Shown here: positions 60,804-64,000 of the stretch, piece after piece
Position numbering within the stretch: the first letter of the stretch is position 1
How the letters are laid out: each line of letters opens with the position of its first letter
NCBI GenBank assembly: GCA_030041375.1
Contig: JASHOA010000030.1
Coordinates: 1 to 64,000 of the forward strand
Source: Acetobacteraceae bacterium
GTDB taxonomy: Bacteria > Pseudomonadota > Alphaproteobacteria > Acetobacterales > Acetobacteraceae
Reading direction: 5' to 3'
Length of the DNA stretch: 64,000 bases
The notes under the pieces: model-generated
What the model was told of the DNA's origin: nothing
The model's database searches: none
The model's input: only the letters and a program-made list of their open reading frames with translations
Translations under genes and position numbers: made by a program

Positions 60804-61023
60804 TTCGCAACCTCGACGATGACCTGATGTCCGGCTCAAGCGCCGCGCCACCCGCCACGGCCGATCGGCGGAGGCAGAGCATCGCGAGATCCTGCGCCAG
60901 GCGCTTGCCGGCGAAGGCGAGCCCTCATTCGACCGGCTGGCGGCCGAGCTTCGCGCGCTCACTGCCGGCCGGAAGGCAACCCCCTCGGAGGTGCTGCTTC
61001 GCGAAGGCCGGGACGAACGTTGA
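60791..61023 (+). pseudogene. FitA/VapB-type antitoxin broken by frameshift and start-codon loss
   Basis: The codons from 60791 read ASLSVRNLDDDLM, the standard ribbon-helix-helix start of FitA-like antitoxins, but no ATG/GTG precedes them (CCG stands where the start is expected). After 60829 the frame must shift by one missing base to continue RLKRRATRHGRSAEAEHREI and on to the stop at 61021-61023. With the base restored, the protein would be a normal antitoxin of about 77 residues that binds the VapC PIN toxin encoded next. As it stands it should not be made. Confidence 0.75.
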
Positions 61024-61469
61024 GCGGATTCGTCATTGACGCGAGCATTGCCGTCAAATGGGTCATCGAGGAGCCGGGAACCGAGCTTGCCCTCGCACTC
61101 CGCCACCGCCCGCTCATCGCACCCGAACTTCTCGCTGCCGAGTGTGCAACCATCCTCTGGAAGAAAGCGCACCGCGGCGAGATCGACCCGAGCGAGGCTG
61201 AACTGGCCGCGCGGCTGCTCAGCCGCGCCGATGTCGAGTCACGCCCGATGCGTCCGCTCATCGCCGCCGCGACAGCCCTGGCGATCGCGCTCGGCCATCC
61301 CGCCTGCGATTGCGCCTATCTCGCTTTGGTCGCAGCAGCAGAGCTGCCGTTTGTCGCAACCGACACCCGACTCCTCAACCGCATCGCACGGGACGATGCC
61401 CGTCGCTTCACTGGACGAGTACTCGGCCTGCCCGACACCGCAGCGTCTGTCGCCCGCGAGGCCGAATAG
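61020..61469 (+). CDS. VapC-type PIN-domain ribonuclease toxin
   Basis: This 149-residue PIN toxin has an intact acidic quartet: D7 (FVIDASIAVKW), E41 (LLAAECATILW), D97 (PACDCAYLALV) and D115 (VATDTRLL). Relatives cleave tRNA or rRNA when freed from their antitoxin. The frame starts at TTG 61020 inside the antitoxin stop (TTGA). The neighbouring decayed copy has GTG at the equivalent place, so the start may have weakened. Since the upstream antitoxin is broken, expression is probably low or a rescuing antitoxin exists elsewhere. Confidence 0.82.
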   Translation: MSGFVIDASIAVKWVIEEPGTELALALRHRPLIAPELLAAECATILWKKAHRGEIDPSEAELAARLLSRADVESRPMRPLIAAATALAIALGHPACDCAYLALVAAAELPFVATDTRLLNRIARDDARRFTGRVLGLPDTAASVAREAE

Positions 61470-61983
61470 CCCGATCAGCTATGACTCCGAGCGGATGCCG
61501 CAGCGCCCCCGGCCCGCATCGCGAAATCCTCCGCCAGACTCTTGCCATCGAGAGCAAGCCCTCCTTTAAGCAGCTTCCCTCCGCGGTTCTTCGGCTCACC
61601 GCCGGTCGCAAGACGACCCCCTCCGGGCAGCCGCTTCGCGATGGCCGCGGCGAGAGGTGAGCGGCTTCATCATCGACAACAGCATCGCTGTCAAATGAGT
61701 AATCGGCGAGCCTGACACCGGTTTTGGCCCTGACGCTTCGTCGCCGCCCGCTCATCGCACCCGAGCTCCCGGCCGCCGAATGTACCAACATTCTGTAGAA
61801 GAAGGCGCGACGCGGAAAGCTGACGGCGCCCACTCCGATCGATACTCCCGCCGGCCTCACGCACTCCGCCACCACGGCATACCGCTGTATTGCGATTACC
61901 TATTCAGTTGTGCCAACCTATCCGCCGCGCAGCTGCACGACGCCGCGCGCGTCAATTGTCACCCCACCAGCGGTAGCAGAAAA
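61470..61983. other. Gap between VapC and the reverse transcriptase gene
   Basis: This is about 514 bp. The first 350 bases are filled by the decayed second VapBC copy. The remaining 130 bases (61851-61983) are less GC-rich and have no clear gene; the promoter and any structured RNA for the reverse transcriptase operon would have to lie here. No obvious hairpin RNA was identified by eye. Confidence 0.45.
61510..61850 (+). pseudogene. Decayed tandem copy of the VapBC module
   Basis: This is a second, more degraded copy of the module just upstream. From about 61520 the translation HREILRQTLAIESKPSF and LTAGRKTTPS parallels the antitoxin. GTG 61657 starts a toxin frame SGFIIDNSIAVK that stops at TGA 61696, where the first copy has TGG. 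Later bases still match (CGCCCGCTCATCGCACCCGAGCT), with a further TAG where the intact gene has TGG. It marks a tandem duplication that is now non-functional and is followed by the reverse transcriptase gene. Confidence 0.75.
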
Positions 61984-63606
61984 ATGCAAGAATATTTCGA
62001 GCGCGCGATCGACAATGTCGTGCGACATGGGGATACAGATGTGTTCCCGTTCCCTATCGAGAACCAGATCTTTTTCGACTGCAAGCCCAGCCTAGTAGAC
62101 CTCCTGCGCGACCTACACGGCAACTTTGACACATGGTTCGCAAAGCACCCCCCGGTCCATGAAGGCGCGCTAACCCCGGTGAGCTACACCGGCTTTCGGT
62201 GGGCTACCCAGCTAGATCCCCTTTGGAATCTGTACTTCCTCGCTCTAGTCCTCTCCATCGCCGACGCAATCGAGTTCCAGCGAATCCCAGCTAAGGACCA
62301 GTATGTCTTTTCCTACCGGTACCGATGGAACCAAGAGGCCTGCGGGATCTTTGACACAGAGTACAACTGGCGCTCGTTTATGGAGCAGTCACTGCGCAAG
62401 GCCGAGCACCACGCGTTCGTGGTGGTCTCAGACATCTCCGAATTCTACCCTCGTATCGGGCACCATCGGCTCGAAAACGCTCTGGCACACCTTGGCCTTA
62501 AGTCTGACATACCAACACGAATCAAAAGAATTTTATCCCAGTTTTCGGGAGCGAACTCCTTTGGTCTACCCATCGGAGGCGCCGCAGCGCGGATACTATC
62601 CGAACTGGTACTGAATCAAATCGATCAACTGCTAAAACTTGACGGAACATCCTTCTGCCGATTTTCTGACGACTTTCACCTCTTCGCCAACTCCCTGGAG
62701 GACGCCTACGCCAAATTGATATCACTTTCCGACAAACTCCAGCGAACGCAAGGGCTCCAGCTCCAAAAGGCCAAGACCCGCGTGATGTCATCCTCCGAGT
62801 TCATAGCTACCAGTCCGGTTCGGCTCGACGACCACGACGCACCGCCCGCGGAAGGAAGCGAAGCAGAGCTACAGGAGCACGCTCGCGGTCTGCTTCGCTT
62901 CTCGCTCCGTTTCGACCCCTATTCTCCGACCGCGGATGAGGACTACGAGAAGCTTAAGGCAGAACTTCAGAAGTTCGATGTAATGACACTGCTACAATCA
63001 GAGCTGTCCAAGAGCCGGATCCATGTCGCCCTTGCAAGGAAAGTCGTCGCCGCCCTGCGATACCTGGATCCGCCACAGCGAGACCAAGCTATAATATCCG
63101 TACTAAAGAACGCTGACCTTCTCTATCCTATCTTCGCAACCGTCCTGACCGCAGCCAAGCATCTGTACCCTGATATTTCTGCGGGTGCCCGCGTCGAACT
63201 CATCGACCGAACGCTGTCACTGCTGCGATCAGAGTCCCACGTCCTTCGCGTCGAACTCAATCTTGCCTACGCGGTACGCTTACTGGCCTGCCACAACTCT
63301 CCGACCGTTCAGGAAACGTTCGTGGCGCTTTACAACAACCCGAACCGCTCAGCATTGGTGCGACGCGACATCATCCTGGCCATGGCGCGTTGGGATGTCT
63401 GGCATTGGCTTTCTGAGCGCCGAAGTACCTTTCGTTCGATGAGCCAAGCCGAACGCCGCGCATTTATCATCGCCTCCTATACCCTCAAGGATGAGGGAAA
63501 GCACTGGAGGCAGCACGTGGCGCCTGAGCTCAGTCCCTTCGAGAAGCTCGTTCGAGACTGGGCCGCCTCGAAAACTGTGGCGCCCGGTTGGGCGATCCCC
63601 CTATGA
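61984..63606 (+). CDS. Reverse transcriptase, probable phage-defence type
   Basis: This 540-residue RNA-directed DNA polymerase keeps the core motifs: the first catalytic Asp D150 in VVVSDISEFYPRIG, GLPIGGAAARILSEL (motif B), the second catalytic pair D229-D230 in FCRFSDDFHLFA (FSDD instead of YADD) and LQLQKAKT (motif D). The N-terminus MQEYFERAIDNVVRHGD is followed by FPFPIENQIFFD. A helical C-terminal region of about 270 residues has no recognised domain. There is no group II intron maturase or integrase domain, which favours an abortive-infection/DRT-like RT. ATG 61984 is preferred over 61780, which lies in the VapC remnant. It overlaps the next gene (ATGA). Confidence 0.8.
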   Translation: MQEYFERAIDNVVRHGDTDVFPFPIENQIFFDCKPSLVDLLRDLHGNFDTWFAKHPPVHEGALTPVSYTGFRWATQLDPLWNLYFLALVLSIADAIEFQRIPAKDQYVFSYRYRWNQEACGIFDTEYNWRSFMEQSLRKAEHHAFVVVSDISEFYPRIGHHRLENALAHLGLKSDIPTRIKRILSQFSGANSFGLPIGGAAARILSELVLNQIDQLLKLDGTSFCRFSDDFHLFANSLEDAYAKLISLSDKLQRTQGLQLQKAKTRVMSSSEFIATSPVRLDDHDAPPAEGSEAELQEHARGLLRFSLRFDPYSPTADEDYEKLKAELQKFDVMTLLQSELSKSRIHVALARKVVAALRYLDPPQRDQAIISVLKNADLLYPIFATVLTAAKHLYPDISAGARVELIDRTLSLLRSESHVLRVELNLAYAVRLLACHNSPTVQETFVALYNNPNRSALVRRDIILAMARWDVWHWLSERRSTFRSMSQAERRAFIIASYTLKDEGKHWRQHVAPELSPFEKLVRDWAASKTVAPGWAIPL

Positions 63607-64000
63607 TCACAGAGCTAACCTTCGCACGTGACTTCTCCTCTTTCTGGAGGGTCGCGACACCGACACTCGACGGATTCATTCACCAGGTAAACAGCGGCCT
63701 ATACGACCGCGACGCAGCGCCCATGAAGGCACCGACAGGCTCGAACCGGCGGGCATTTGTCAACGAGGTCGCATTCGAACTGTACTGCCGCGTGGCTCTC
63801 CTGCCGAAAGCCCCCTCGCACGGGAACGACTTACGAAACTTCCTCGACGCCTCAGTCGCCGCGGTGAGGAAAGCTACAAATTCGCCCCTTCCCGACAGCG
63901 ACTACCACAACGCGCTCCGGGCGGACGAACAGGCAGACGTACTTGAGCAGGTCCGCCGCTTGAGAGCCCGCCTTACACCCGCCTCAGCGCCTCAGCCGCC
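63603..64000 (+). CDS. Unknown partner gene of the reverse transcriptase (truncated by window end)
   Basis: The open frame starts at ATG 63603, overlapping the reverse transcriptase stop by four bases (ATGA), and runs beyond the window; about 133 residues are visible. The start is MITELTFARDFSSFWRVATP, then a helical region (RRAFVNEVAFELYCRVALLP) and a charged segment (ADEQADVLEQVRRLRARL). I recognise no family. Tight overlap implies translational coupling and a common function with the reverse transcriptase. Base composition is lower in GC than the core genes, as for the reverse transcriptase. Confidence 0.7.
   Translation, partial: MITELTFARDFSSFWRVATPTLDGFIHQVNSGLYDRDAAPMKAPTGSNRRAFVNEVAFELYCRVALLPKAPSHGNDLRNFLDASVAAVRKATNSPLPDSDYHNALRADEQADVLEQVRRLRARLTPASAPQP

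Follow-up and report, generated by a model that had tools for sequence, protein, structure and literature searches.

The two-gene operon at the right-hand end of the window, by which we mean the whole analyzed stretch of 64,000 nucleotides (positions 1-64000 of a 123,812-base contig from a draft genome of 4.5 Mb in 95 contigs), is almost certainly an antiviral operon of class DRT8, which we take to be the same as UG7. The reverse transcriptase (RT) gene (61984-63606, plus strand) lies in a frame that is open over 61780-63606, and its 540 aa are counted from the ATG at 61984. Against the PADLOC profile Drt8 (PDLC03783) the protein scores 542 bits (E 4.1e-163) over residues 2-530, a match far beyond chance, while the next-best PADLOC profile, RT_UG21, reaches 127 bits. 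The RT stop codon TGA (63604-63606) overlaps the ATG of the partner gene (63603-63605) in an ATGA (63603-63606), so that the overlap with a second gene leaving the window was correctly read in the first-pass annotation. The window holds the 5' part of this gene (63603-64000, plus strand). Extension along the contig recovered it whole (63603-64322, 239 aa), and the protein matches the PADLOC profile RTasPDDEXK (PDLC03797) over its full length (1-239; 208 bits, E 2.9e-62); the window-internal part alone scores 64 bits. No Pfam model was above cut-off for the partner, and no NCBIfam model for its window-internal part. The first-pass annotation had placed the partner in no known family and had supposed that the two-gene combination might be undescribed. 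Neither idea survives, since the partner belongs to the catalogued RTasPDDEXK family, the RT is a catalogued Drt8, and DRT8 is characterized by a PD-(D/E)XK domain in the accessible text of PMC12596737 (2025); the pair thus falls in a DRT class whose description already includes this partner. Family-level phage protection by DRT8 is entered in Table 1 of PMC13213688, in the part of that source available. The other elements of the earlier reading (a UG/Abi-type defense RT, a conserved pair, and an accessory site) are retained below.

The catalytic aspartates D150, D229, and D230 had been reported as intact, and they are invariant in 39/39 aligned RTs (alignment A2, the window RT plus 38 of 78 relatives). 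RVT_1 (49.1 bits against a cut-off of 29.6) is the only Pfam family on the RT at E <= 1, which agrees with the earlier statement that maturase and integrase domains are missing. The FSDD variant is likewise present. Among the 88 loci with a readable motif, the residue before DD is V in 68, A in 18, and S in 2, the last being the window RT and its nearest relative (L017); FSDD was therefore rejected as a functional novelty and is treated as a real but minor variant. Two other RT classes were also rejected: a retron RT (37.8 bits with the St85 model against a cut-off of 235, and 22 with Retron_TIR against 600) and a group II intron RT/maturase (55.1 bits against a cut-off of 300, with RVT_1 as the sole Pfam domain). 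As a separate observation, the same genome carries another RT on contig C33 (L001 1324-2385), in which the RVT_1 match begins at profile position 65; the frame that follows it is transposase-like by eye.

The predicted model of the RT (pLDDT 90.1) consists of fingers and palm at about residues 1-275 and an all-helical C-terminus at about 292-540. Compared with solved structures, the model matches over the whole length DRT6 (Z 21.6, rmsd 4.4, 464 aligned residues), DRT4 (Z 19.5, rmsd 4.7, 448 aligned), AbiA (Z 18.0, rmsd 5.0, 400 aligned), AbiK (Z 17.2, rmsd 4.2, 464 aligned), and AbiP2 (Z 17.1, rmsd 5.2, 422 aligned). Group II intron RTs are matched over the residues of the RT domain (Z 21.4, rmsd 2.6, 254 aligned), and the matches to DRT9 (Z 17.8, rmsd 3.1, 249 aligned) and DRT2 (Z 15.8, rmsd 3.0, 249 aligned) hardly go beyond it. 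Since group II intron RTs reach a similar Z, the likeness to DRT6, DRT4, and AbiK rests on the aligned length and not on Z. It has been reported, in the accessible portion of a 2026 preprint (PMC13174585), that the helical-repeat RTs studied so far carry out synthesis without a nucleic-acid template and that some are protein-primed. By its architecture, the window RT may make DNA in the same untemplated way.

For the partner, 63 of the 65 nucleases found were aligned (alignment A4; L012 and L059 left out), and G141, D151, E160, K162, Q175, Y179, and N198 are invariant in 63/63. The D-E-x-K and Q-x3-Y patterns are thus fully kept, and D...E-x-K...Q-x3-Y is what we take to be the pattern of RecB/Cas4-type nucleases. 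No cysteine is conserved family-wide, so the Fe-S cluster of AddB, Cas4, and Dna2 is not apparent. The fold was assessed on an AlphaFold model (pLDDT 91.8) of the nuclease from the relative L017, which is 46% identical to the window nuclease. The model matches AdnA (Z 9.8, rmsd 4.0, 170 aligned residues), AddAB (Z 9.6, rmsd 3.6, 154 aligned), MGME1 (Z 9.4, rmsd 4.2, 157 aligned), ACE1 (Z 9.1, rmsd 3.6, 166 aligned), RecB (Z 8.6, rmsd 3.8, 171 aligned), and Dna2 (Z 8.0, rmsd 4.4, 188 aligned), values that exceed only modestly the 7-8 to be expected for models without a match. The top 14 structure matches are all AdnAB, AddAB, MGME1, ACE1, or RecBCD and agree with the motif; Foldseek gave a single match at E <= 0.001, ACE1, and the nuclease profile found nothing among solved structures at E <= 1. 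Z-scores of 9-10 show the predicted fold, not the substrate. RecB/MGME1-type nucleases act on single-stranded DNA and overhang ends, and the resemblance to them would suit a role in processing, in which the nuclease shortens the RT product or releases it from a priming protein and a defined DNA species then acts on the phage. Protein priming, reported for DRT3b and AbiK in the sources as far as accessible, and three tyrosines of the RT (111, 155, and 313) that are invariant in 39/39 RTs point the same way. None of these tyrosines can be named as a primer, however, and they may be structural, and we consider processing unlikely to be the main role of the nuclease.

The operon sits in a variable slot. 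To its left is a VapC-like PIN-domain gene (61020-61469, plus strand; PF01850, 31.7 bits against a cut-off of 23.6) in a flank common to the congener locus L110, and between this intact copy and the RT there is a degraded second vapBC copy (61516-61815, plus strand) with in-frame stops, which is 73% identical to window positions 60879-61177 over 300 columns. Contig positions 61501-64501 (61501-64000 in the window) are replaced in L110 by a 2.07-kb segment; by blastn the joins fall at contig 61500 and 64502 (L003 1500 and 4502), and L110 has 1.5 kb of the left flank and 1.06 kb of the right flank in common with the contig. Within the slot only the degraded vapC copy has a match in L110, and this match is paralogous, to the vapC of L110 itself. 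In its place L110 holds an OLD/GajA-like AAA gene (L110 3473-5314, minus strand) with AAA_21 and AAA_15 above cut-offs and an OLD-like TOPRIM below (21.0 against 23.2 bits). The best PADLOC matches of this gene are GajA (74.8 bits) and HEC-01A (69.7 bits), with OLD, PtuA, and AbiLi among 138 families, a match that is broad and not specific. In three other congeners the right flank alone was matched in the stretches fetched, and a search of four further genomes from the genus, two of which are less than 90% complete, found no Drt8. The GC content is 55.9% in the RT, 60.3% in the nuclease, and 67% in the flanks; the low GC of the operon is in line with a recent arrival and, together with the AAA gene in the slot of the congener, supports the accessory site proposed at first pass. 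The same low GC and the adjoining degraded vapBC copy, signs of a turbulent site, might be taken to mean that the two genes are an inactive remnant in decay. Each frame has its full length, though, both active sites are intact, and the profiles are matched nearly end to end, which makes a relic most improbable.

A conserved RNA beside the RT was sought in several ways. Rfam returned no match at E values up to 0.5. The 500-nt flanks of the operon had no blastn similarity to those of other loci (E 1e-3, plus strand; the "upstream" stretch of L022 in this comparison is RT code owing to a frame break), while flanks are shared by other close locus pairs, such as L018 and L049 with 71% over 97 nt upstream. 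The alignable part of the vapC copy ends only 168 nt before the RT ATG, and this stretch folds no better than shuffles (z -0.02). An upstream ncRNA is not seen by the Rfam, flank, and folding checks; a fast-evolving RNA may be present. The promoter and terminator scan returned two promoter-like signals (0.8 expected) and one terminator-like signal (3.0 expected), too little to base a reading on.

Linkage of the two genes was examined in 90 loci, made up of the window, nine earlier loci, and the best 80 of 93 loci that a profile search retrieved from species genomes; a scan of genome contigs with the single RT sequence had returned nothing. The closest relative among these best 80 of 93 has 62% RT identity. 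With the set so composed, the nuclease is found on the same strand in 65/90 loci. RT and nuclease frames can overlap by 4 bases in 32 of the 65 and by 11 bases in 20, nuclease starts being picked nearest to the RT stop, which favors short overlaps. The nuclease is the only frequent neighbor (64/65 loci), the next families occurring in 3. An 81-row tree was made by a quick method with a midpoint root and has long branches among its 20 nuclease-less RTs; nine of the 90 loci were left out as cut by a contig end or broken (L049, L059, L070, L071, L073, L079, L083, L090, and L092). A single change of the nuclease label suffices on this tree: 61 RTs with and 20 without it stand on opposite sides (SH-aLRT 100). 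The RT frame of L022, which is among the 61, is broken, so 60 unbroken RTs were counted. The nuclease is present beside 60/60 unbroken RTs on the window's side, the window included, against 0/20 on the other side (L009, L011, L013-L016, L076, L081, L082, L084-L089, L091, and L093-L096), and the two-gene operon is conserved as the first-pass annotation expected.

Nuclease-less loci amount to 25/90, the 20 in the tree and five outside it. In L070, L073, and L083 a contig end cuts the locus, the partner position is beyond view, and the RT is nearest to the nuclease side; L090 is also cut and is nearest to the nuclease-less side; in L092 the RT is cut after about 245 residues, is without nuclease, and is nearest to the nuclease side. 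L116, also nuclease-less, has an RT protein 100% identical to that of L091 and was not counted again. All 10 RTs scanned with the Drt8 profile, four from one side and six from the other (L009, L011, and L013-L016, all strong matches), score 407-542 bits, so the profile alone does not separate the two RT kinds. Among the 23 nuclease-less loci clustered by neighbor (including L090 and also L083 and L092, which are nearer to the nuclease side), no family recurs in three or more. Because 20 far-side RTs are without the nuclease and have no recurrent replacement neighbor, this RT kind can apparently do without it. Decay was also compared. The nuclease frame is kept beside a broken or interrupted RT in five loci (L022, L049, L059, L071, where about 2.5 kb interrupts the RT, and L079), and the reverse, an intact RT with a lost nuclease, occurs in 0/60. 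This 5-versus-0 pattern leans weakly toward restraint of the RT by the nuclease, as gene length alone would give about (540/779)^5 = 0.16, sequencing errors may account for some of the breaks, and the L049 nuclease is shortened, without its first residues.

At the level of the phylum, Drt8 is found in 4/398 genomes at E 1e-40 and RTasPDDEXK in 1/398 at E 1e-10, namely the genome of the window; the other three Drt8 loci (L014-L016) are all without nuclease, and no nuclease without RT was found among the 398 genomes at E 1e-10. On plasmids, nine records have an RT match, and the pair is present in three of the six loci fetched (L008, L010, and L012). A single-sequence search of plasmids with the nuclease gave one weak match, which adjoins an RT; as L010 and L012 escaped it, the search is insensitive. 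On two plasmids a second gene annotated as reverse-transcriptase-like adjoins the Drt8-type gene (L009 7818-9662; L010 8449-12141, minus strand). Viral contigs in IMG/VR, kept outside the 90-locus set, carry the pair on three of the four contigs with an RT (L117, L118, and L119). L117 and L118 score alike, and the nearest types are L037 and L061; the fourth contig, L120, has an RT without nuclease whose nearest relative is a nuclease-less RT. Phage records gave no RT match at E 1e-10.

The best explanation that we can offer for the pair, held tentatively and at somewhat less than an even chance, is that untemplated DNA synthesis by the RT is restrained by the RecB-like nuclease of the same operon. 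The RT, which shares with DRT6, DRT4, and AbiK a helical C-terminal domain right behind the palm, would make DNA continuously and without a dedicated non-coding RNA, and the co-translated nuclease would degrade or cap the product in healthy cells. If a phage put RecB-type nucleases out of action, drew them away, or protected DNA ends, the RT DNA would accumulate and become toxic, and the infection would be halted in the manner of abortive infection. Restraint is favored because both genes match the Drt8 and RTasPDDEXK profiles, their linkage is fixed, and both active sites are invariant; because the RT matches DRT6, DRT4, and AbiK as a whole, the partner has a RecB-like predicted fold, and no flanking RNA is seen; and because far-side RTs matching the same Drt8 profile have neither the nuclease nor a frequent replacement. 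The gene order speaks against it, as antidotes are often encoded by the first gene of an operon and the nuclease is second here. Precedents also favor restraint. In the accessible parts of the reports, DRT3 is lethal without RecBCD, which restrains its DNA, and is triggered by the phage inhibitor Gam; DRT9 is lethal without ExoI, which restrains it; and phage ORF55 protects the single-stranded DNA of DRT4 against exonuclease (PMC13213688). The rule that these partly available reports share is that DNA made by an RT does harm once it escapes nucleases.

The nuclease could instead be the effector, RT DNA or a change in the RT on phage sensing activating the degradation of phage or host DNA. Nucleases act as effectors in several retrons, and the invariant D-E-x-K, the fixed operon linkage, a predicted RecB-like fold suited to DNA ends, and the OLD/GajA-like gene in the same slot of L110 all speak for such a role. 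A review table (PMC10952713, 2023), in the part available, gives Cap17 (SLOG/PNP), a PNP effector, for DRT8, so that effector modules do occur in the class; this entry counts against restraint, as does the consideration that far-side RTs could use an unlinked effector. Against an effector role, 20 RTs across the tree have no nuclease and no frequent replacement neighbor, and in the text accessible it is the DNA made by the RT that is said to act in DRT3, DRT4, and DRT9. We rank restraint first, the effector role, which is plausible but somewhat less probable, second, and processing well behind both. Restraint might take the more specific form of a make-and-destroy sensor, in which an untemplated polymerase is locked to its own RecB-type nuclease and Gam-like inhibitors or end-shielding proteins act as triggers by blocking the nuclease; we regard this as a speculative and rather unlikely extension. 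If it is true, the nuclease would be a portable, built-in version of the restraint that the host is reported to exert on DRT3 and DRT9.

The mechanism of DRT8 is given as unresolved in Table 1 of PMC13213688 and in PMC13314766, in a literature that was reached mostly as open-access text. The system is already catalogued; the window operon adds a member to it and is a good test case for mechanism. What the survey adds is the linkage of 60/60 against 0/20 across the RT tree (in a set including the best 80 of 93 scanned loci), a predicted RecB/MGME1-type fold for the nuclease, and an RT match over the whole lengths of DRT6, DRT4, and AbiK. From the description "RT plus PD-(D/E)XK" there thus follow two competing predictions, restraint and effector, which one catalytic mutant could tell apart.

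Among known systems the closest is DRT8 itself, with the same Drt8-profile RT and RTasPDDEXK partner and a PD-(D/E)XK domain in print (accessible text of PMC12596737); the window pair differs only by its diverged sequence and by Ser in place of Ala or Val before DD, a residue it has in common with L017. With DRT6, DRT4 (UG15), AbiK, AbiP2, and AbiA the RT shares a helical C-terminal domain and a whole-length predicted-fold match. It is nevertheless far below the curated cut-offs of the Drt4 and Drt5 profiles (60.2 against 450 bits and 54.7 against 550 bits), and DRT4 is listed as a single-gene system in the available part of PMC13213688, whereas the window RT has a fixed nuclease partner. The nuclease resembles the RecB/AddAB/AdnA/MGME1/Cas4-type enzymes in its predicted fold and its invariant D...ExK and QxxxY, and differs from them as a stand-alone protein of 239 aa without a helicase or visible Fe-S cysteines. 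The likeness to DRT3 with host RecBCD and to DRT9 with host ExoI, as these are described in the sources at hand, is that of a DNA-making RT and a nuclease that possibly limits its product; no ncRNA is seen at the window operon, and the nuclease, a host gene for DRT3 and DRT9, is here encoded by the operon.
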